A stretch of DNA of 64,000 bases from contig BPKO01000006.1 of assembly GCA_026005175.1 (NCBI GenBank), positions 62,001 through 126,000 on the forward strand, read 5' to 3'. The notes beneath the pieces were generated by a model. It did no database searches and was not told the DNA's origin. It was given only the letters and a program-made list of their open reading frames with translations. Within the stretch, counting starts at the first letter, position 1. Every line of letters begins with the position of its first letter. A program made the position numbers and the translations under genes. Source of the stretch: Candidatus Tectimicrobiota bacterium (GTDB lineage: Bacteria > Tectomicrobia > Entotheonellia > Entotheonellales > Entotheonellaceae). Below are positions 8,954 to 29,822 of this stretch, one piece after another.

Positions 8954-9514
8954 ATGAAAAAAACTCTTAGGGCTCCTGCTGGTCTGCCTGCTTCCCGCCT
9001 TGGGCTGGGGCCGACCCTGTTACGGTTTTTTTCGAGCCGTCCACTTCGGTGGTGTTGCCCGGGGGACGTTTTCACCGTCGACATCAAAGCCAATATCCCA
9101 GACCCCGTGCTGGGCTGGGGGCTGGGATGTCACGTTTGATTCGAGCCTCCTTACCCTCGTGGGGGCGCCGGCCATTGGCCCATCCTGGGTTGCGGCTTTT
9201 GCTCCTGATGGCGATGGGCTGGCCGGACTGGCCTTTCCGCTGCCTGTCTCCGGCAACGATATCCTCCTGGCTACCCTCACCTTTGAGGCGACGGCCTTAG
9301 GGACTTCCTCGCTGATTGCCAGCGTGACCCCGCTTGACCTCACCGAAGGATTCCCCCTGGCGCCTCCTGCCTCGCCGGGAAGCTTTGCCGATGTGGTGTT
9401 CACGGCGGGCACGGTCCCACGTGGTGCCCGAACCCGGCACGGTGGTGGCTGCTGAGCAGCGGCCTTTTTGGCCTGCTCGGCTACAGCTGGCGGCGCCGGC
9501 AGCTGGCAGCATGA
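8954..9514 (+). CDS. Cohesin-like PEP-CTERM surface protein (several frameshifts)
   Basis: ATG at 8954 has a perfect AGGAGG 7 nt upstream. Reading across single-base indels near 8970, 9030, 9055, 9110 and 9420 gives: a signal peptide (MKKTL plus leucine-rich core), LPGDVFTVDIKANI, DVTFDSSLLTLVGAPAIG, SGNDILLATLTFEATALG, and a C-terminus VPEPGT, a hydrophobic stretch, then YSWRRRQLAA. The PGD-FTVDI, VTFDSSLL and ATLTFEA blocks match the cohesin fold. The PEP motif, membrane helix and arginine cluster form a PEP-CTERM signal, which is recognised by an exosortase that sorts proteins to the cell surface. About 185 residues. The gene follows one whose product ends in a dockerin-like module, so the two may bind each other. 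No exosortase gene is in the window. Confidence 0.7.
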
Positions 9515-16764: not shown

Positions 16765-17784
16765 GTGCGTGTGCTTGTTTTGGGCGGCACCGGGGTGATC
16801 AGCCGCGCCATTGTCGAGCAGCTGCTCGCTGCCCACCACGAGGTGGTGCTGTTCAACCGCGGCACCCGGCGGCTGGCCTTTGCCGGCGAGGTGGCGCAGC
16901 TCACCGGCGACCGCCGCCACCGCGAGGCCTTTGAGCAGGAGATGCGCCGGCACCGCTTCGACGCCGTCATCGACATGATCTGCTACGACGCGGCCGATGC
17001 CCGCTCCACGCTGGCCGCCTTCCGCGACACCACCGGCCACTTGCTGGTCTGCTCCAGCGTGGCTGCCTACAAGCGCCCTTATAAAACCGTGCCCACGCTG
17101 GAAGACGCCGAGGTGCTGTGGGACGACCCCGCGTTTGGCTACGGCTTTCACAAGGCCGAAGCAGAGCGCGTCCTGTGGCACGCCATTGCCAGCGAGCAGC
17201 TGCCGGTGACCATCTTTCGCCCCTCTCTCACCTTTGGCCCCGGCGCCACCAACGTCGGGGTGCTGCGGCAAAACTACGGGATCGTGACCCGCATCCGCCA
17301 GGGCAAGCCCCTGGTGATGTTTGGCGACGGCAGCACGTATTTTAGCTTTACTTTCGCCCCGGATGTGGCGCGGGGGGTGGTTGGCCTCCTAGGCAAGCCA
17401 GAGACTTTTGGCCAGGCCTACCACATCTGCAGCGAAGCGCGCACCACCTGGGAGGACTTTTACTTGACCTGGGGTGCCATTCTGGGCAAGACGCCACATC
17501 TCGTGCACCTTCCCGCCGAGCTCCTCTACCGCGCCGCTCCCAACCTCTGCGCCCACCTTTACTTTGAAAAAACTTACGGCGGTCTCTTCGATAACAGCAA
17601 AATCAGAGGGGTGCTGCCGCACTTCCAGGCCACCATCTCCCTGCGTGCCGGCCTTGAGACGCTGCTGGCGTGGTTTGAGCGCGAGGCCAGTACTGTGGAC
17701 GCCGAAAAAGACGCCCTTGAAGACCGGCTGGTAGAGGCCTACCAGGCGCTGGCAGCCCAGCTTACCAACCTCTACCTCAAGTGA
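16765..17784 (+). CDS. NAD-dependent epimerase/dehydratase (extended SDR)
   Basis: A 339-residue Rossmann-fold protein with the nucleotide-binding loop VLVLGGTGVISRAIVEQLL at the N-terminus, LFNRGTRRLAF where the adenosine ribose would sit, VIDMICYDAADARSTL, and VTIFRPSLTFGPG. The usual YxxxK pair is degenerate: FGYGFHKAEAERVL supplies Y and K four residues apart (YGFHK), so a Y-x3-K is present. This is the isoflavone-reductase/CSP41-like branch of extended SDR proteins. Start is GTG 16765, with GGGAGG upstream. The downstream amidohydrolase begins 11 nt after the stop, so the two share an operon. Substrate not known. Confidence 0.78.
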   Translation: MRVLVLGGTGVISRAIVEQLLAAHHEVVLFNRGTRRLAFAGEVAQLTGDRRHREAFEQEMRRHRFDAVIDMICYDAADARSTLAAFRDTTGHLLVCSSVAAYKRPYKTVPTLEDAEVLWDDPAFGYGFHKAEAERVLWHAIASEQLPVTIFRPSLTFGPGATNVGVLRQNYGIVTRIRQGKPLVMFGDGSTYFSFTFAPDVARGVVGLLGKPETFGQAYHICSEARTTWEDFYLTWGAILGKTPHLVHLPAELLYRAAPNLCAHLYFEKTYGGLFDNSKIRGVLPHFQATISLRAGLETLLAWFEREASTVDAEKDALEDRLVEAYQALAAQLTNLYLK

Positions 17785-17795
17785 AGGAATTGACC

Positions 17796-18815
17796 ATGTA
17801 CAAGCTCGACATCTTCAACCACATTTTCCCCAGGGCCTTTTTCGATAAGATGCTGCAAGTGGCGCCGCACCACAAAGACATGGGCAAGCGTGTGCGTAAC
17901 ATCCCGGCGCTGGTGGACCTGGAGCAGCGCTTTCGCGTCATGGACCAGTTTGCCGACTACGCCCAGATCATCTGCCTGGCCTCGCCGCCCTTAGAAGCAC
18001 TGGCCGGCCCGGAGGTGACGCCCGAGCTGGCCAGGATCGCCAACGACGGCATGGCCGAGTACGTGGCCAAATACCCCGAGCGCTTCCCCGGCTTTGTGGC
18101 TTCCCTGCCCATGAACAACCCCGAGGCCGCTCTGGCTGAAATCGACCGCGCCGTCCTCGAGCTCGGGGCCGTAGGGGTACAGATGTTTACCAACGTCAAC
18201 GGCGCACCGCTCGACCGACCCGAGTACCGGCCCCTCTTTGCCCGCATGGCTAGCCTGGCGCGGCCTATCTGGCTGCACCCGGCCCGCGGCGCCGATTTTC
18301 CCGACTACCGCACGGAGGAAAAATCGCGGTACGAGATCTGGTTCGTCTTTGGCTGGCCTTACGAAACCAGTGCGGCCATGGCGCGGCTGGTCTTTGGCGG
18401 CTACTTTGACGCCTTTCCCAACCTGACGATCATTACCCACCACATGGGCGGCATGGTGCCTTACTTTGAGGGGCGGGTGAGCACCAGCTGGGCGCAGCTG
18501 GGTAGCCGCACCTCGGATGAGGACTACAGCGGCGTGCTGGCGCGGCTCAAGCGGCCGCACTTGGAGTACTTCAAGATGTTCTATGCCGACACCGCCCTCT
18601 TTGGCGCTGCCGCCGCCACCCGCTGCGGCCTGGAGTTTTTTGGCGTCGACCACGTGCTGTTCGCCTCCGACAGCCCCTTTGACCCGGAAAAAGGGCCAGG
18701 CTATATCCGGGAAACCATCCGCATCCTTGAGGCGCTGCCCCTGTCCGCGGCCGAACGCCAGCAGATCTTTGCCGGCAATGCGCAGCGGCTGCTGCGCCTG
18801 GGGGAACCCCGCTAG
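17796..18815 (+). CDS. Amidohydrolase-2 family (ACMSD-like metal-dependent hydrolase/decarboxylase)
   Basis: A 339-residue TIM-barrel protein of the aminocarboxymuconate-semialdehyde decarboxylase group. Metal and active-site positions: WLHPARGADFPDY (His), LTIITHHMGGMVPYFEGR (His-His), and LFASDSPFDPEKG (Asp). The N-terminal strand reads MYKLDIFNHIFP, where most ACMSD members have an HxH metal pair; only one histidine is present here, so metal coordination may differ. ATG 17796 is chosen because AAGGA lies 7 nt upstream; a GTG at 17781 overlapping the previous stop is a weaker alternative. C-terminal AERQQIFAGNAQRLLRL is typical. The role could be decarboxylation or hydrolysis of an aromatic or dicarboxylic intermediate. 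Confidence 0.78.
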   Translation: MYKLDIFNHIFPRAFFDKMLQVAPHHKDMGKRVRNIPALVDLEQRFRVMDQFADYAQIICLASPPLEALAGPEVTPELARIANDGMAEYVAKYPERFPGFVASLPMNNPEAALAEIDRAVLELGAVGVQMFTNVNGAPLDRPEYRPLFARMASLARPIWLHPARGADFPDYRTEEKSRYEIWFVFGWPYETSAAMARLVFGGYFDAFPNLTIITHHMGGMVPYFEGRVSTSWAQLGSRTSDEDYSGVLARLKRPHLEYFKMFYADTALFGAAAATRCGLEFFGVDHVLFASDSPFDPEKGPGYIRETIRILEALPLSAAERQQIFAGNAQRLLRLGEPR

Positions 18816-18904
18816 GGCTGCCGCGGCCGGCGGCTTTTCTTGCTCCCTTGCCCACACAGGAAAAAAGGCGTACGATGGCGCCACACACAGCAGGAACGCT
18901 AGCG

Positions 18905-20506
<1,602 letters not shown>

Positions 20507-20508
20507 CG

Positions 20509-22474
20509 ATGATCCGCAAGCTGCTCGATCGCCAACCGCGGCGAGATCGCCCGGCGCATCGCGCGCACCTGCCGCGCGCATGGGCATCGCCACGGTGGCG
20601 GTCTACTCGGAGGCCGACGCGCGCGCCCTACGTGCGCGAGGCCGACGAGGCGGTGCCCTGCGGCGGCACCGCCGCCGAGACCGTACCTGCGCGTCGAGCG
20701 ATTCTCGAGGCCGCCCGCGCTCGGGCGCCGACGCCGTCCATCCCGGCTACGGCTTCCTCGCCGAGAACGCCGACTTCGCCCGAGCCGTGCGAAGCCGCCG
20801 GGCCTGTCTTTGTCGGGCCCGCCGGCCGAGGCGATCGCCGCCATGGGCTCAAGCTCGAGGCCAAGCGCCGCTGGCGGCCGGGGGTGCCGGTGCTGCCCGG
20901 CTGGACGGTGGACGCGACGACCGGCGGCGCTGCGGCGCGCGCCGAAGGGCTGGGCTGCCCGCTCTGGTCAAGGCCGCGCCGGGGGCGGCGGCGCGGGATG
21001 CGCTGGTGCGCCGCCCGAGGCAGCTGGCGGCGGCCGTCCACGCCGCGGCGCGAGGCAGCGGCGGCCTTCGGCGACGGCACCGTCTTCCTCGAACGCTACC
21101 TCGAAGGGGCCGCCACGTCGAGGTGCAGGTCTTCGGCGACCGCACGGCGACGGTGGTCCACCTCTTCGAGCGCGAGTGCTCCATCCAGCGCCGCTACCAG
21201 AAGCTGCTCGAGGAAGCCCCCTCGGTCGCCGTCGACGAGCCCGCTGCGCGCCCGCTCTGGCGGCGCGGCGGTGGCGGCGGCCAAGCGCTCGGGCTACGTC
21301 GGCGCCGGCACGGTGGAGTTCCTGCTGGCGCCCGTGACGGCGCTTCTATTTCCTCGAGATGAACACCCGCCTCCAGGTCGAGCACCCGGTGACCGAGCTC
21401 GTACCGGCCTCGACCTCGTGCGCTTGCAGCTGCGGGTGGCCCGCGGGGAGCCGCTGCCTCCCGAAGCGCCAGGCGCCGCTCCTTCAGGGCCACGCCATCG
21501 AGGCGCGGCTCTACGCCGAAGACCCGCAGCGCGACTTCCTGCCCACCACCGGCACCCTCTATCGCTTCCGCGCCCCGACACTCCCGGGGGTGCGCGTGGA
21601 CAGCGGCGTGGAAGAGGGCACGGTGCTCAGCCCCTACTACGACGCGCTGCTGGCCAAAGTCATCGCCCACGCCCCCACCCGCCTGGAAGCGGCGGCCAAG
21701 CTGGCGCGGGCCCTGGTGGAAATGCGCCTCCACGGGGTTGTCACCAACCGTGACTTCCTCGTGCGCCTGCTGCGCCACCCGGCGTTTTTGGCCGGGAGCA
21801 CCGATACGGGTTTTTTGGAGCGCCACGCGCCCGAGCTGGCCGTCCCCCTGGCCGATGCCCAGGCCGAGCGCCTGCACGCCGCCGCTGCCGCGCTGGCCGC
21901 GCAGAGCGCGCGCCGGCAGCAGGCGCGGGTGCTGGCCACCCTGCCTTCGGGTTGGCGCAACAACCCCTCGCAGCTCCAAGAAACGGTGTTTCGCGGCCGC
22001 TACGGCGACGTGCGCGTGGGCTACCGCTTTACCCGCCACGGCCTGTACCTGCACCTCGACGGGGAAGAACAGCCGCGGGTGCGCCTGGGGCGCTGCACGC
22101 CAGACGTCGTGGAGCTGGAAGTGGATGGCGTGCGCCGCACGTACGAGGTGCACGCGGTGGCCGACACCTCCTTCGTCGATAGCCCCCTGGGGGCCAGTGT
22201 GCTGCGCGAGCACCCGCGCTTTCCGCCGCCCGCGCCGCCGGCAGAAGCGGGGACCCTGTGCGCTCCCCTGCCCGGGCAGGTGGTGCGGGTGGCGGTGCGA
22301 GAAGGGGAGGCGGTAAGCGCCGGGACGCTGCTGGTGGTCATCGAGTCGATGAAAATGCAGCACCTCATCACCGCCCCTCGCGCCGGACGGGTGCATGCCC
22401 TGCGCGTGCAGGAAGGACAGCAGGTAGAAGCGGGGACGGTGCTGGTGGTGCTTGATGAGGCAGCCGGCGCTTGA
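20509..22474 (+). CDS. Biotin carboxylase/BCCP fusion subunit of acyl-CoA carboxylase (5' half heavily frameshifted)
   Basis: ATP-dependent carboxylation of its own biotin, feeding the carboxyltransferase encoded just upstream. Joined pieces give ANRGEIARRIARTCRAMGI, DAVHPGYGFLAENADFAR, KAAAGGGGRGMR (ATP-grasp), VHLFERECSIQRRYQKL, and FLEMNTRLQVEHPVTELV (catalytic core). From 21555 the frame is intact, with GHAIEARLYAEDPQRDFLP, a linker, and a C-terminal biotinyl domain with ESMKMQHLITAPRAG, the lysine between two methionines being the biotin site. About 655 residues is normal for MccA/LiuD-type subunits. Breaks between about 20530 and 21480 occur every 50-120 bases. With the preceding carboxyltransferase and the following enoyl-CoA hydratase this resembles a liuBDC-type leucine/isovalerate unit. 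Confidence 0.82.
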
Positions 22475-22530
22475 GCGTGCGGCCCCTGGAGTCCTTGGCT
22501 GCTGTAAAACGCTTCACGGAGGAGAGCATC

Positions 22531-23341
22531 GTGGCGGAAAAGGTCCTCACTGCGCAGCAAGGGCGCGTCTTGCTGGTCACCCTCAACCGGCCCGAAGTGC
22601 GCAACTGCGTGGACGACGAGACGGCCGAGCTTCTCTACGCGGCGGTGGAGCGCTTCCGCACCGACCCCCGACCTCGACGTGCTGGTGCTCACCGGGGCGG
22701 GCGAGGCGGCATTCTGCGCCGGCTTTGACTTGAAGTACGCTCACGCCACCGACGTGCACATCACCCGGCGGGCCGGCGCCGACCGCTATGGCCCCATGGG
22801 CATCACCCGCATCACGGACGTGCCCAAGCCCACCATTGCCGCCATCAACGGCTACTGCGTGGCCGGGGGGCTGGAGCTGGCCTGCTGGTGCGACGTTCGC
22901 ATCTGCGATGTGGCAGCCCAGTTCGGGGTCCTCAACCGCCGCTGGGGGGTACCGCTGGTCGACGGCGGCACGCAGCGCCTGCCCCGCCTCGTGGGGCTGG
23001 GCAACGCCCTTTACCTCATCGAGACGGGCGTGCTCATCGGGGCGCAGCGAGCGTTGCAGATGGGCCTGGTGCAGGAAGTGGTGCCCAAAGGGCAAGCGGT
23101 GGCGCGCGCCTTGGAGGTGGCCCAGCACATGACTACCTATCCCCAGATCTCGCTACGCAACGACCGCCTGGCCGCCCTGTGGGGCCTCGCCCTGCCCCTG
23201 CCCGATGGCCTGGCGCTGGAGGCGCGCCTGCACCAGGAAAGCCTGCGGGCAGAAGAGATGCGGCAGGGGCTGCGCCACTACGTAGCGCGGCAGCGGCCGC
23301 AGCCCTTGCGCCCCGCGCCCCTGCCCTGGGAGGCGCCGTAA
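22531..23341 (+). CDS. Enoyl-CoA hydratase/isomerase (crotonase family; one frameshift)
   Basis: Hydrates an enoyl-CoA; next to the carboxylase it may act as 3-methylglutaconyl-CoA hydratase. The N-terminal part reads GRVLLVTLNRPEVRNCVDDE. After an indel near 22673 the frame continues as DVLVLTGAGEAAFCAGFDLK (oxyanion-hole block), VPKPTIAAINGYCVAGGLEL (second oxyanion-hole block), and RRWGVPLVDGGTQRLPRLVG. The glutamate often seen in the catalytic loop is replaced by VDGG in this subfamily. GTG 22531 is chosen because GGAGG lies 8 nt upstream; an upstream GTG near 22471 has no such site. About 270 residues. It overlaps no neighbour; the next gene begins 28 nt later. Confidence 0.8.
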
Positions 23342-23369
23342 CCTCCGGACACTGCTGGAGAGCATGCCC

Positions 23370-24435
23370 ATGCCCAAACGTGCTTTGTCTTCTGCCGTCT
23401 ACGAAGCCGCCGACGTCTTTGAAGTCAACGAGCTCTTCTTTCGCAACGGCTGGACCGACGGCTTGCCGGTGCTGCCGCCCACCGAGGAGCGGGTGGCCGA
23501 GGTCTTGGACGTCCTGGGCCTGGAGCCGGACGCCGTCATCGGCATCGAGCCCGTGCGCCGGCGGCGCCTTACCGCCGAAAAAGTGGCCATCAACGCCGTC
23601 ATGGCCGGCTGCCGGCCGGAGGACGTGCCGGTGGTCATCGCTGCCTTGCAGGCCATGTGCGAGCCTGCCTTCAACCTGCACGGCAGCTCGGCGAGCACGG
23701 GGGGCAGCGCCCCCCTTCTCATCGTCAACGGGCCTATCCGCCGCGCCCTTGGCATGAACGCCACCCACAACGTCTTTGCCAACGGCAGCCGCGCCAATGC
23801 CACCATCGGCCGCGCCGTGCGCCTGGTGATGATCAACGTGCTGGGGAGCATTCCCGGGCAGCTCGACCGCTCGACGCTGGGGCATCCGGGCAAGTTCACG
23901 TTCTGCATCGCCGAAGACGAAGAGGACAGCCCGTGGCTGCCGCTGGCCCAGGAGCGGGGCATTCCGGCTGGCACCTCGGCGGTGACGGTCTTTGCCTGCG
24001 AGTCGCCGCACCAAGTGATGAACGAGTGGACGCACGACCCGCGGGACCTTCTGGAGACGTACGTGGCGGCGATGTGCGCCAACATGCTCACGTACTCCAT
24101 CTGGCCCGGCAACTACGTCCTCGTCATCCCCAAGCAGCAGCGAGATCTGTTTGCCCGCGCCGGCTGGCAGAAGCGCCACATTCGCGAGTACCTCTACGAG
24201 CGCGCGCGCCTGAAGCGGCGTGCCTGGCGCACGGTTGGCAAGCAAACCCTGGTCCACGCCGGCAACGAAGACCAGGAGTTCACTGCCCTGCGCACTCCCG
24301 ACGACCTCCTGGTGGTGGCCGCCGGCGGGGCCGGCAGGCGGCTTTGGCGCCCTCATTCCCCCGTGGTACGGAGCAAAATCGCTGGCCGTCACCCGGCCCA
24401 TTGCTCCTTCCCCCCAAAGAGGAGAAAGCCCATGA
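23370..24435 (+). CDS. Conserved protein paired with the UGSC selenoprotein, unknown function (one frameshift)
   Basis: About 355 residues, soluble, no signal peptide. Distinct blocks: FEVNELFFRNGWTDGLPVLP, EKVAINAVMAGCRPEDVPVV, APLLIVNGPIRRALGMN, GRANATIGRAVRLVMINVLG written as RANATIGRAVRLVMINV, HPGKFTFCIAEDEEDSPW, and GNYVLVIPKQQRDLFARAGW. I recall this composition from uncultivated soil lineages but cannot name a reaction. An indel near 24344 joins AAGGAGG to FGALIPPWYGAKSLA and the stop at 24433, which overlaps the selenoprotein start by 4 nt (ATGA). The two genes are therefore translationally coupled and probably act together. Cysteines are few (AGCRPED, CEPAF, FACESP), so it is not obviously a thiol enzyme. 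ATG 23370 has GGAG 9 nt upstream; 23364 is an alternative. Confidence 0.65.
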
Positions 24436-24988
24436 GCCTGCGTGTCCTCGACCCCACTTCTTCAGACGAGATGGCCCAGGCGTGCCTGGCGCCCCGGCTG
24501 CCGCGCCTCGAAGGAGCGACCATTGGCTTGCTCGACAACGGCAAGCGCAACGTGGCCCGCTTTCTGGATCACCTCGAAGCCCTCCTGCGTGCCCGTTACC
24601 TGGTGCGCGGGGTGGTGCGCCGCCGCAAGCCGGACTTCAGCCGCCCCGCCCCCCCAGAAGTGATCGCCGACTTTCGCGGCTGCGACGCCCTTATTGCTGC
24701 GGTGGGTGACTGAGGCAGCTGCTCGTCGTGCAGTGTGCACGACGCCATTGCCGCCGAGAAGATGGGCCCCTGCCGGGAGTCGCTATCATTACCGACCGCT
24801 TTGTGGAGACGGCGCGAGCGATGGCCCGCCTGCAGGACCTGCCCGCCTACCCCGTGGCCGTCATCGCCCATCCCATCAGCGACAACACCGACGAGGAACT
24901 GCGCGCCAAGGCCGAGGCCGCAGTCGAGCAGTGCGTGGCCATCCTCTGCGGGCAGGAGACAGGAGAAGGGCAAGCTTGCTTGGGATGA
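24432..24988 (+). CDS. UGSC-family selenoprotein with in-frame TGA (Sec94)
   Basis: Starts at 24432 after GAGGAGAAAG; the stop of the preceding gene overlaps it. The N-terminal part reads LEGATIGLLDNGKRNVARFL and CDALIAAVGD, then TGA at 24711-24713, then GSCSSCSVHDAIAAEKMG. This is the UGSC motif of NCBI's UGSC (seleno)protein family, in which the first position is selenocysteine or cysteine. A stem-loop follows the TGA in the right place for a bacterial SECIS (next entry). After an indel near 24768 the frame continues PGVAIITDRFVETARAMARL and PVAVIAHPISDNTDEELRAKA to the stop at 24986. About 185 residues, soluble. The reaction is unknown; the U-G-S-C/S-S-C arrangement suggests a redox or metal-binding role. 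Selenocysteine insertion genes would have to be elsewhere in the genome. Confidence 0.78.
24711..24744 (+). promoter_or_regulatory. Selenocysteine codon and SECIS-like stem-loop
   Basis: TGA at 24711-24713 is followed 10 nt later by CGTCGTGCA (24724-24732), loop GTG (24733-24735) and TGCACGACG (24736-24744): a perfect 9-bp stem whose apical loop starts with G, 20 nt after the TGA. Bacterial SECIS elements lie within the coding region just after the UGA, with a G near the tip of the loop. Confidence 0.7.
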
Positions 24989-25095: not shown

Positions 25096-26059
25096 GTGAC
25101 GGCCACGCAGATCTTCTTGGAAAACTTCCTGCAGTCCCTGGTAGCCGGCTTCCAGGTAGGCAGCCTCTACGGCCTGATGTGCGTGGGGCTGGGGCTCATT
25201 TTTGGCGTCATGCGCGTCATCAACTTTGCCCAGGGCGACTTCCTCATGCTGGGGATGTACGTGGCCTACTACCTGGTGGTTGGCCTGGGGCTCCTGACCC
25301 TTCTGGGGGCCGGCTTTGGGCCCTTTGTGGGGGCTTGTCTGGCCGGGGCCGGTGGTGTTCGTGGTGGGCTACGCCTTGCACCGCGCCCTCCTCACGCGGG
25401 TCACCGGGATTCGCGTGGTGGCTGCCGAAGCCGAAGGCCACTACGCGCAGCTCATCCTCACCCTGGGCATCTCGCTGGTGATCCAAAACGGCGGCCTTAT
25501 CGTCTTTGGCTCCACGCCGCAGCTGGTACGCACGCCGCTGGCCTCGCGCGCCTGGGAAATCGGCCCATTCTTTGGCGACTACGGCTCGGTGTTCGTCAAC
25601 CAGGCACGCACATACAGCTGCCTGGTGGCGGTGGCCGTCCTGGTGGGGCTTTTCCTGTTCATGAACCGCACGCGCCTGGGCAAGGCGCTGCGCGCCGCCG
25701 CGGACGATCCCGAGGCGGCAACTTACATGGGCATCGACGTTGACCGCGCCCACCGCCTGGCCTTTGCCCTGGGGGTGGGCATCACCGCGGTGGCCGGCGG
25801 CCTGGTGGGAACGTATTACCCGTTCCAGCCTTATGTGGGCCTGGAGTTTGTCATCATCATGTACGCCGGGGTGGTGCTGGGAGGCATGGGCAGCACGCTG
25901 GGAGCATTCCTCGGCGGCCTTACCATTGGCTTTGTGCAGCAGCTGTCGGTGCTGGTGTTGCCCACACAGCTACAGAACACGGCGATTTTCGTCGTCTTTC
26001 TCCTCATCGTCATGCTGCGCCCCCAGGGACTGTTTGGCCGCAGCGCGGAGCGCACGTAA
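25096..26059 (+). CDS. livH: Branched-chain amino acid-type ABC permease LivH (one frameshift)
   Basis: Inner-membrane permease of a HAAT-family ABC importer. The N-terminal part reads GSLYGLMCVGLGLIFGVMRV and INFAQGDFLMLGMYVAYYL, the LivH signature. One surplus G near 25345 breaks the frame; it resumes VVFVVGYALHRALLTRV, RTRLGKALRAAADDPEAATY, MGIDVDRAHRLAFALGVGIT (cytoplasmic coupling loop), and ends VFLLIVMLRPQGLFGRSAER. Eight or so membrane segments are expected. GTG 25096 follows AGGGAAGG. It is the first gene of livH-livMG-livF-substrate-binding protein. Ligands of such systems range from amino acids to amides and aromatic acids, so the substrate is open. Confidence 0.88.
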
Positions 26060-27838
26060 ATGCAACAGGGCAGCGCGTGGCGGCAGGTGCTGATCATTTT
26101 CGCCTTTGCCGCCGTTTACCTCGCGGTGACCGTCGCCATTCGCAACGCCTACTACCAGCTGATCATGACCCTGGTGCTGATCTGGGCGGTCATGGGGCTG
26201 GCGTGGAACATGCTGAGTGGCTACGGCGGCCTGGTATCGTTTGGCCACGCGGCGTTCTTTGGCCTGGGGGCGTACACGGTGACCCTAGCGCTGGTGCATG
26301 GGGGCCTTACGCCGTGGCTGGGCATCCCGCTAGGGGCGCTGGTAGGGGCCCTGGCGGCGGTCCTCATCGGCCTGCCCACGTTTCGCCTCCGCGGCCATTA
26401 CTTTGCCTTGGCCATGCTGGCCTATCCTCTGGCTTTGCTTTACGTCTTTGAGTGGCTCGGCTATCAGGAAGTGCCGCTGCCCATGCAGCGCGAGCATCCC
26501 GCCCTTTACATGCAGTTTCACGACCAGCGCCTCTACGTGCTGCTCGCCCTGGTGTTGCTCGTTGCCGCCATGCTGGTGTCGCTGCGCATCGAACGCTCGC
26601 GCTTTGGCCTGTCGCTGCTGGCCATCAAGCAGAACGAGCCGGCGGCGGAAGCGGCGGGCATTGCCACGCTGCGCTGGAAAATGGCGGCCATCGTTCTGAG
26701 CGGCGCCACCCGCGGCCACCGCCGGCGGACTGTATGCCGTGGTGCTGCTGGTGGTGACACCGCAGACGGTCTTTGGCCTGCTGGCCTCGGCGCAGGCCCT
26801 GGTGGTTACCCTCTTTGGCGGCGTAGGGGACCCTGTGGGGGCCGGTGATTGGCGCCTGCGTGCTGATTCCGCTGGCCGAGATCCTGCATGCCGAGTTTGG
26901 CCACCTCATCCCGGGCATTCAAGGGGTGGTGTTTGGCCTGGGGATCATCGGTGTCATCTTGCTGGCGCCAGAGGGCCTCTACTGGAGTCTGCGCGACCGT
27001 CTGGGGCGGCGGGGCCGCCCCCGGGGAGGCCCAAGAGCTTGGCCAGCCGGCGCGGGTGGTGGCCGTGCCGGCCAGGACCAACGTAAGCGCGGCGGGCGAC
27101 GATCCGCCGCTTTTGCAGCTCGACGGCGTGAGCAAGGCCTTCGGGGGGTTGCAGGCGCTCGACGCGGTGAGCTTCTGCGTCGCAGAGAGGGAAATTCTCG
27201 GTATTATCGGCCCCAACGGTGCCGGCAAAACGACGCTGTTCAACGTGATCAACGGCTTCATACCGCCCGATCGCGGCCGCATTCGCCTGCGCGGCCACGA
27301 CCTGGTGGGGCTCAAGCCCCATGCCGTGTGTCGCCTCGGGGTAGGACGCACGTTTCAGGTGGTGCGTCCCTTTCCCCGCATGACGGTACTCCAGAACGTG
27401 GTGGTGGGGGCGTTTGCTGCCACGCGCGACGATGCCGAAGCGGTGGCCCTGGCGCACCAGGCCCTGGCGCGGGTCGGCCTGGCGGCGCTGGCGCAGCGGC
27501 GGGCGGACGGCCTCACCAACGTGCAGCTGCGCCTCATGGAACTGGCGCGGGCTCTGGCGTCGCAGCCGCAGCTGCTGCTTCTCGACGAGACCCTGGCCGG
27601 GCTGGGGCACCAGGAAATGGACCACCTGCTGCAGGTCATTTCCCAGCTGCGCCAGGAGGGCATCACCATCGTCATCATCGAACACACCATGCAGGCCATG
27701 GTTCGCCTCGTCGACCGCTTTGTGGTGCTCGACCATGGCCGCGTCATTGCCACCGGTGAGCCCGAGCAGGTGGTACAGGACCGGGCGGTGGTCGAGGCGT
27801 ACCTCGGACGCAAGTGGGCCGATCATGCTGGACATTGA
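26060..27838 (+). CDS. LivM permease fused to LivG ATPase (frameshifts)
   Basis: The N-terminal half is a LivM-type permease: MTLVLIWAVMGLAWNMLSGY, YGGLVSFGHAAFFGLGAYTV, and RLRGHYFALAMLAYPLALLY, then after indels near 26705 and 26830 GHLIPGIQGVVFGLGIIGVI and LLAPEGLYWSLRDR. No stop separates it from the LivG ATPase once an indel near 27010 is allowed: a 30-residue linker leads to LLQLDGVSKAFGGLQALDAV, Walker A GPNGAGKTTLFNVINGF, and Walker B LLLLDETLAGLGHQE. Permease-ATPase fusions of this kind are known. A separate livG starting at a GTG near 27055 cannot be excluded. The ABC signature is degenerate: LTNVQLRLMELARAL in place of LSxGQ. Its stop overlaps livF by 14 nt. Confidence 0.75.
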
Positions 27839-28535
27839 GGGGCTCTACGTCAGCTACGGCGGGTTGCAGGCCTTGCGCGGCGTCTCGCTGACGGTGCGGC
27901 AGGGGGAGTTTGTCACCCTGGTGGGGCCCAACGGGGCGGGCAAGACGACGCTATTTAAGGCCATCTCGGGCACTGTCCCCCTGGCAGGCGGGAAGATCCG
28001 CTACCAGGGGCAGGATTTGCAGCGCTTGCCGCCGGCGCAACGGGCGCAGCTGGGCATTGCCCACGTGCCTGAGGGGCGCAAGGTGTTTCGCAGCCTGACG
28101 GTGCTGGAAAACCTGGAAATGGGGGCGTTGTCGCCGCGGGGCCCCCGGGCGCGCTGGGCGGAGAATCGGCGGCGCATTGAGGAGCTCTTTCCCGTGCTCG
28201 TCGAGCGGCGCCACCAACTGGCCGGGACGCTGTCGGGCGGGGAGCAGCAGATGCTGGCCATTGCCCGCGGGCTGGCGGCCGCACCCGAGCTGCTCCTGCT
28301 TGACGAGCCCTCGATGGGACTGGCCCCGGCGCTGGTGGAAGCAATTTTTGCCTGCATTCGCGACATCCATCACCGCGACGGCGTCACCGTGCTGCTGGTC
28401 GAGCAGCGCGCTGCTGAGGCGCTGGAGCTGTGCGATCACGGGTATGTTCTCGACACCGGGCGTATCGTGCTGGAAGGCTCGAGGGAGACGTTGCTGGCCG
28501 ATGCACGCGTGCGCCAGGCGTACTTGGGCATGTGA
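27825..28535 (+). CDS. livF: Branched-chain amino acid-type ABC ATPase LivF
   Basis: A 236-residue ABC ATPase. Walker A VGPNGAGKTTLFKAISG, Q-loop in IRYQGQDL, the LivF-specific IAHVPEGRKVFRSLTVLENL, signature LSGGEQQMLAIARGL, Walker B LLLLDEPSMGLAPALV, and H-region VTVLLVEQRAAEAL, in which the switch position carries Q-R as in LivF. It would pair with the degenerate LivG domain, so the heterodimer may have one canonical and one weak ATP site. Overlaps the preceding gene by 14 nt. Confidence 0.92.
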   Translation: MLDIEGLYVSYGGLQALRGVSLTVRQGEFVTLVGPNGAGKTTLFKAISGTVPLAGGKIRYQGQDLQRLPPAQRAQLGIAHVPEGRKVFRSLTVLENLEMGALSPRGPRARWAENRRRIEELFPVLVERRHQLAGTLSGGEQQMLAIARGLAAAPELLLLDEPSMGLAPALVEAIFACIRDIHHRDGVTVLLVEQRAAEALELCDHGYVLDTGRIVLEGSRETLLADARVRQAYLGM

Positions 28536-28589
28536 TTGTCGACCTGCCCCGGCCGCCGTGCTCCGGGGCTTTGAGGGAGGAACGCCGCG

Positions 28590-29822
28590 ATGACGCATTC
28601 CCTGCTGCAACGCGCCCTTGCCTGGGGGTTGGCCGTGCTCGTCCTGCTTGGCTTGGCCGGCGCTGCACTGGCCCAGCCGGCTGAAGTGAAAATTGCCCTT
28701 ATTGGTCCGCTCTCTGGCCCCTGGGCTCGCCAGGGGGCCCTGATGCGCCTGGGTGCCGAGATGGCTGTGGACACCATCAATGCCCAAGGCGGTATTCAGT
28801 CCCTGGGTGGCGCCAGGCTGCGGCTGGTGATCCAGGACGCTGGGGACTCGGCAGAAAAAGCGAAAAACGCCGCCCAGCGCCTGGTGGCGCAAGAGCCAGA
28901 TCTGGTGGGCGGCATGGGGGCCTGGCTCAGCTCCTTTACCCTGGCGGTTACCGAAGTCACCGAGCGTGCCCGGCTGCCGTGGATCACCTTGTCGTACTCG
29001 GACCTGATCACCGAGCGGGGCTTTCGCTATGTGTTTCAGACCTCGCCCACAGGCGGCACGCAGGCGCGCAACGCCTTGCCTACCCTGCTTGACCTGGCGG
29101 AAAGCGCCACCGGCCGGCGTCCCCGCACCGCTGCGATCATTTCCGACAACACCGCGGCGCCCCTGAGCTTTGCCAAGCCCATGCGCGAAGGCGGCTTCGA
29201 GCGCCTGGGGGTCAAGCTGCTGGTGGACGAGATCTTTACGCCACCCCTGTCGGACGCCACGCCGCTGGTGCAAAAAGTGCGCTCTGCGAGGCCGGATTTT
29301 CTACTCCTGCTGGCCACCAGCGTTCCCGACGACACCCTGATTCTGCAGAAGCTCAACGAGTTTGGCCTTACGGCGCGGCGCCTGCCCCGCATTGGCAACG
29401 GCGCCCATCTGGGCGTGCCGGAGCTGCTGCAAACGGTTGGCCCCGAGCTGCTCGAGGGGCTGCTGAGCATCGTTGCCAACTGGCCGGGCAAAGGGCACGA
29501 GGCGCTGGTGGCGGCGTTTCGCGAGCGCACCGGCGAGCCGTGGATGACCCAGGACAGCCTGTCGCTTTACGGTGCGGTGTGGATCTTGAAGGAGGCGCTG
29601 GAGAGAGCCGGGGTCGCCGAGCGCGACGCGGTGGCGCAGGCCATTCGGGAAATGGACACCACCAGCGGCCCCGCGCACTACTTCCCTGGCGGCCGTGTCA
29701 AGTTTGAAGCCAACGGCCGCCGTGCCGGCGCCCCGGTGGTGGTCTTTCAGTGGCAAAACAGCGTGCCCGTGACCGTCTATCCGCCCGAGATGGCGGTGGC
29801 CAAGCCCTACTGGACCCAGTAA
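28590..29822 (+). CDS. Periplasmic substrate-binding protein of the Liv-type ABC importer
   Basis: A 410-residue type I periplasmic binding protein. A Sec signal peptide ends at GAALAQPAEVK. The mature protein begins VKIALIGPLSGPWARQGALM and has RLGAEMAVDTINAQGGIQ, which is the LivJ/LivK pattern, then ERARLPWITLSYSDLITERG and FRYVFQTSPTGGTQARNALP. The region DSLSLYGAVWILKEALERAG near the end is typical. It delivers a small ligand to LivH/M. Start 28590 follows GAGGGAGGAACG. It lies 54 nt after livF. Ligand unknown; the serine/tyrosine pair that binds the amino-acid backbone in LivJ could not be confirmed. Confidence 0.87.
   Translation: MTHSLLQRALAWGLAVLVLLGLAGAALAQPAEVKIALIGPLSGPWARQGALMRLGAEMAVDTINAQGGIQSLGGARLRLVIQDAGDSAEKAKNAAQRLVAQEPDLVGGMGAWLSSFTLAVTEVTERARLPWITLSYSDLITERGFRYVFQTSPTGGTQARNALPTLLDLAESATGRRPRTAAIISDNTAAPLSFAKPMREGGFERLGVKLLVDEIFTPPLSDATPLVQKVRSARPDFLLLLATSVPDDTLILQKLNEFGLTARRLPRIGNGAHLGVPELLQTVGPELLEGLLSIVANWPGKGHEALVAAFRERTGEPWMTQDSLSLYGAVWILKEALERAGVAERDAVAQAIREMDTTSGPAHYFPGGRVKFEANGRRAGAPVVVFQWQNSVPVTVYPPEMAVAKPYWTQ

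Follow-up and report, generated by a model that had tools for sequence, protein, structure and literature searches.

A selenocysteine-encoding UGSC gene with a near-constant partner gene and a distant relationship to the selenocysteine domain of GrdB and PrdB

The TGA codon at 24711-24713 of the window (i.e., the whole stretch of 64,000 nucleotides analysed here) almost certainly encodes selenocysteine (Sec). The gene that contains it is an added member of UGSC, a selenoprotein family published in 2008 (NF041046, PF24696). Sequence comparison suggested that the Sec half of UGSC is a distant relative of the Sec domain of GrdB and PrdB, lying outside those families, and the evidence favours a reductase of the GrdB/PrdB kind, working with an upstream partner that is its sole constant neighbour. 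A preliminary description of the locus was correct in assigning the gene to UGSC, but the family was a published one and not new.

The features of the locus are listed in Table 1. The initial ATG opened 93 codons ahead of the TGA, which stood at the U of U-G-S-C, as had been described. Beyond it the frame read GSCSSCSVHDAIAAEKMG, the residues after the TGA being G-S-C-S-S-C-S-V-H-D. Profile searches matched both NF041046 and PF24696 on either side of the TGA. PF24696 scored 117.4 bits in the first frame and 54.8 bits in the second, above its curated cut-off of 25 bits; the two frame pieces scored 82 and 47.5 bits against NF041046, each below the curated cut-off of 125 bits because the gene is split in the window. 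Membership of the family was evident from the U-G-S-C motif, the Sec codon and the SECIS-like stem together. The family sequence had been described as continuing in one frame; this held for both sides of the TGA but not as far as 24988, since the frame broke near 24770.

Table 1. Features of the UGSC locus, in window coordinates
Feature	Position	Strand	Basis or remark
Amidohydrolase, acyl-CoA carboxylase subunits (broken carboxyltransferase; biotin carboxylase), enoyl-CoA hydratase	17781..23341	+	Pfam
Partner gene, uncharacterised family	23364..24435	+	Frame break near 24330; 67-68% identity to intact partners
UGSC selenoprotein gene	24432..24988	+	First frame from 24432 to ~24770, then another frame; stop at 24986-24988
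In-frame TGA, Sec94 of U-G-S-C	24711..24713	+	Shared by all seven UGSC genes of the genome
SECIS-like hairpin, 9-bp stem, loop GTG	24724..24744	+	Folding, pairing counts, covariation
Frame break within UGSC	24768..24785	+	G/C run; probable assembly indel
Branched-chain-type ABC transporter and periplasmic binding protein	25096..29822	+	Pfam

The arms of the hairpin (24724-24732 and 24736-24744) paired perfectly over 9 bp and the G of the loop sat 20 nt past the TGA, so that the stem reported from first inspection was borne out by both sequence and folding. When the 47 nt following the TGA were folded for each UGSC gene, most genes showed a G-starting loop at a single fixed distance from the TGA. 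Across 92 UGSC genes the fixed 9-bp stem averaged 7.7 of 9 pairs, while swapping synonymous codons over the same genes gave 5.1 pairs (sd 0.16, maximum 5.7 in 1000 trials); for the window hairpin by itself, 9 of 9 pairs had a probability of 0.02 under synonymous recoding. Four natural homologues with cysteine in place of Sec retained just 3-5 pairs. Covariation, computed over 38 distinct aligned rows, scored 0.237 as against 0.086 when shuffled; none of 500 shuffles reached 0.237, and the score dropped once the stem pairing was slid. The stem covaries across bacteria, has more pairs than synonymous recoding yields, and is lost in the four cysteine homologues.

The complete machinery for Sec insertion, whose absence had been named beforehand as an observation that would count against the reading, was found in the genome (G000): selA and selB adjoined on contig 3 with tRNA-Sec approximately 7 kb away, and selD was also present, itself with one in-frame TGA. 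The selD gene (L023, G000:C9:120631-121554) lay approximately 10 kb from a UGSC-partner fusion gene. Seven UGSC genes were identified in the genome, with exactly one in-frame TGA apiece, and nearly all UGSC genes from 12 other genomes with a match had one in-frame TGA too. These data bear on the alternative that a normal stop codon or an error of sequencing accounts for the TGA, and chance for the hairpin. TGA does terminate other genes normally within the window, and the assembly probably has errors; but the TGA occupied the same codon in every one of the six further UGSC genes in this genome and in almost all homologues outside it, while the SECIS-like stem covaried and was missing from the cysteine homologues, making this alternative scarcely credible. 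Sec insertion is regarded as settled, direct chemistry excepted. A recoded genetic code was rejected because neighbouring genes end normally at TGA.

The seven UGSC-partner modules of the genome (L073-L078 plus the window copy; contigs 1, 2, 6, 9 and 12) were all Sec-coding. Their UGSC proteins were mutually no more than approximately 45% identical, and several were nearer to proteins of other phyla. Cysteine forms of UGSC (L140, L151, L127 and L148) had the motif GDCGSCCSAC in mycobacteria and GDCAGCCSCS in Geodermatophilaceae and Nakamurella. Their genomes nevertheless contained selA, and the idea that cysteine homologues mark genomes free of Sec machinery was rejected, selA being present in all four. 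Mycobacterium gordonae has a natural cysteine version, and the culturable Sheuella amnicola NBD-18 has a partner-UGSC pair. At L123 (1102-2691), UGSC occurred in a divergent form, U-G-A-C, next to its own divergent partner and beside an ordinary UGSC pair.

Both genes of the window module were affected by frame breaks. PF24696 positions 1-111 matched in the first UGSC frame and positions 112-171, the C-terminal third, in the frame of the ORF at 24728-24988; compared with the intact Binatia protein of L093, the two sides of the break were 59% and 65% identical. The partner gene shifted frame near 24330, a break that was absent from the preliminary description. As assembled, the upstream ORF continued directly into UGSC; allowing for both breaks, the partner stop codon (TGA, 24433-24435) overlapped the UGSC start as ATGA, which upholds the earlier proposal of translational coupling to a large upstream protein. 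The carboxyltransferase was likewise split, with PF01039 positions 2-163, 165-196 and 310-389 falling in three ORFs. Split conserved genes (carboxyltransferase, 18848-20506; UGSC, ~24770; partners, ~24330 and L074 ~9160-9260) suggest an indel-rich assembly.

It could be argued that the window copy is decaying into a pseudogene, its module inactivated by genuine frameshifts in UGSC and partner, given that two adjacent genes each have a break. We consider this improbable: the carboxyltransferase next door was broken over several frames as well, another partner gene of the genome (L074) was split, the assembly is merely 77% complete, the flanks of each break were still 59-68% identical to intact homologues, and the Sec codon and SECIS-like stem were intact. 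Assembly indels fit better, and are most simply the cause of both breaks, because the neighbouring carboxyltransferase and a second partner gene are also broken in a genome assembly of this completeness.

The position of UGSC after a carboxylase and hydratase unit, from which a redox reaction of CoA or thiol substrates had been suggested, was real by Pfam but was not common to other UGSC loci, and because those loci differ, the carboxylase and hydratase context does not show what the substrate is. The neighbours of the six other modules in the genome varied. A search of 25 orthologous loci for a third conserved gene turned up nothing beyond the partner and UGSC except, as read by eye, a LysR-type regulator now and then, in a comparison where shadow ORFs of the GC-rich DNA interfered with the picking of ORFs. 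A catabolic role for the window copy is suggested by the genes near it for an acyl-CoA carboxylase, a hydratase, an amidohydrolase and ABC uptake.

The partner, by contrast with these variable neighbours, was near-constant. It was beside or fused to UGSC in 18 of 18 loci from this genome and its relatives, although in one of these (L086) the distance was approximately 3 kb. When the partner was used as bait in named genomes, the search returned 80 loci with 82 partner genes, 78 of which had UGSC within 1.2 kb, mostly downstream of the partner with a median gap of ~80 nt; two of the other four stood at contig ends. In the fusions that exist, UGSC is at the N terminus. The 2008 metagenome paper mentions UGSC fused to an unnamed domain, 'Unknown_1' (PMC2398784), which is possibly the same partner. 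The protein is approximately 345 aa long, and the window copy was 67-68% identical, across two frames, to the intact partners of L081 and L093. Sequence and profile searches found no Pfam, NCBIfam or PDB match to the partner family, and PDB sequence searches with UGSC and partner profiles gave nothing usable. Structures of UGSC and partner were predicted separately. The predicted partner fold (pLDDT 93) returned only weak and ambiguous matches from Foldseek and VIA-align (class I fumarase, cyclic amide hydrolases and chorismate mutase, with Z below 6), and for this reason no fold relative is claimed. The partner was also considered as a relative of GrdE/PrdA and rejected, profile comparison detecting no relation to GrdE.

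The link between UGSC and GrdB/PrdB emerged from family scans of 28 UGSC proteins. Thirteen matched TIGR01917, glycine reductase selenoprotein B (best E = 1.4e-7), and 11 matched TIGR01918, the broader GrdB/PrdB model (best E = 7.7e-6); others matched models for GrdF, GrdH and PrdB. Two UGSC-partner fusions scanned singly scored 11-15 bits against GrdB/PrdB-type models. These matches were significant but weak, and UGSC lay far below the cut-offs of TIGR01917 (602 bits), TIGR01918 (65 bits) or TIGR04483 (300 bits). GrdB and PrdB-like selenoproteins were then taken from related genomes for profile-profile comparison. UGSC matched GrdB (E = 1.5e-6) over ~85 columns, in the Sec half only, with Sec placed on Sec and HPLG on HPI, and matched PrdB-like proteins (E = 2.3e-5), again with Sec aligned to Sec; control profiles for GrdE and the partner gave E-values of 0.027 and 0.64. 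The Sec of a U-x-x-C motif thus aligned with homologous flanks in UGSC, with the negative controls in place.

GrdA was not detected in G000, G101 and G089, the last being 100% complete with six UGSC matches, and GrdE/PrdA (PF09338) was not found in G000 (77% complete) or G101. Given that GrdA was not detected in G000 and G089, nor GrdE/PrdA in G000, the module appears to work without the A protein of glycine reductase. Diverse bacteria (L061-L072), and G000 itself (L060, G000:C5:119379-119765), where GrdE/PrdA was not found, had a PrdB-like family whose Sec codon falls in U-x-x-C (PUPVC, PUPLC or GUAIC). Separately, some GrdB relatives (L056-L058) had UGTG instead of UGTC, and so had lost the second cysteine; GrdE-like genes were nearby in G002 and G003.

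In the literature searched, UGSC is called Trx-like and is given no function (PMC2398784). The profile matches and the predicted structure argue otherwise. The AlphaFold model of UGSC (pLDDT 92) consisted of five alternating strand-helix units in a Rossmann-like arrangement, with Sec 94 directly preceding the third helix, and did not show the arrangement of elements seen in thioredoxin, where a beta hairpin lies close to the end. Fold searches of the PDB returned generic Rossmann-like folds at best (TM ~0.4-0.5, Z up to 10.5); matches of this kind are to generic three-layer alpha/beta structures and by themselves exclude nothing. UGSC could still be a thiol-disulfide oxidoreductase of the thioredoxin-fold type, or a peroxidase-like redox protein, with the partner as its client or docking protein, and the U-x-x-C motif would suit such a role. 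This is unlikely, however, when the model shows five beta-alpha alternations, which thioredoxin does not, when the profile matches go to GrdB/PrdB and the family scan showed no thioredoxin family, and when there is a single near-constant partner.

A GrdB/PrdB-like reductase may instead be envisaged. UGSC and its partner have the architecture of PrdA/PrdB and of the GrdB/GrdE-type pairs: a short U-x-x-C subunit of that sequence type, a larger companion and several paralogues. Because this architecture matches, and because GrdA and GrdE/PrdA were not found, we propose a reductase that resembles PrdAB but binds its substrate through an unrelated subunit. In D-proline reductase, PrdA holds the substrate; the proposed mechanism is that the PrdB Sec attacks carbon, that a cysteine of PrdB resolves the selenoether, and that regeneration is by an electron-transfer protein (PMC3091704). 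The chances seem about even that UGSC and partner form a two-subunit enzyme on this model, in which Sec would attack a substrate held by the partner. The part of substrate holder could be given to the partner by analogy only, owing to its lack of sequence relation to GrdE and of a clear fold relative. On these terms the partner would hold an activated small substrate; the selenolate of Sec, positioned where helix 3 begins, would attack a carbon-heteroatom bond or a similar electrophile; the second cysteine of U-x-x-C would resolve the product as a selenenyl-sulfide; and a thioredoxin-type dithiol would reduce the selenenyl-sulfide. The seven divergent copies in G000 might differ in substrate, much as separate GrdB/GrdE paralogues act on glycine, sarcosine, betaine and fluoroacetate, and the window copy might act in a catabolic route with the acyl-CoA carboxylase, the hydratase and the uptake system.

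Selenium-dependent reductive cleavage is known mainly from anaerobic amino-acid fermenters. If the proposal is true, it extends to many environmental bacteria. We tentatively suggest, as a possibility that falls short of an even chance, that UGSC and its partner represent a hitherto undescribed, widespread class of enzymes that cleave bonds by selenium-dependent reduction, related to GrdB/PrdB through the Sec domain, having an unrelated, non-pyruvoyl substrate-binding subunit, and with paralogues specialised by substrate in Proteobacteria, Binatia, Rokubacteria, Chloroflexi, Actinomycetota and others. UGSC is among the most abundant selenoprotein families of aquatic metagenomes, with 255 Sec sequences in the GOS survey (PMC2398784). 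The literature searched named no function for it; the relationship to GrdB/PrdB, the near-constancy of the partner and the expansion into multiple copies all go beyond that literature. Together, the GrdB/PrdB placement and the partner turn an 'unknown Trx-like selenoprotein' into a testable, proposed two-subunit enzyme.

Compared with known systems, the window protein agrees with the UGSC family (NF041046/PF24696; PMC2398784) in family profile, UGSC motif, Sec codon and SECIS; there is no difference at family level, although the window copy is split by an assembly frame break. GrdB, GrdF and GrdH (TIGR01917, TIGR01918, PF07355) and FarB resemble UGSC in that UGTC...HPLG aligns to UGSC...HPI, and in having several paralogues per genome, which are substrate-specific in Grd and Far; the fluoroacetate system FarB/FarE, a precedent for the proposed chemistry alongside PrdA/PrdB, shows how GrdB/GrdE-type pairs diversified by substrate (PMC10838667). 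UGSC differs from GrdB in missing its long N-terminal part, and GrdA and GrdE were not found in this genome. PrdB (TIGR04483) is similar as a short U-x-x-C Sec subunit with profile-level similarity around Sec, and PrdB/PrdA also in having a separate, larger companion subunit with no need of GrdA. UGSC nevertheless lies far under the PrdB cut-off, and its companion belongs to another family, not PF09338 (GrdE/PrdA).
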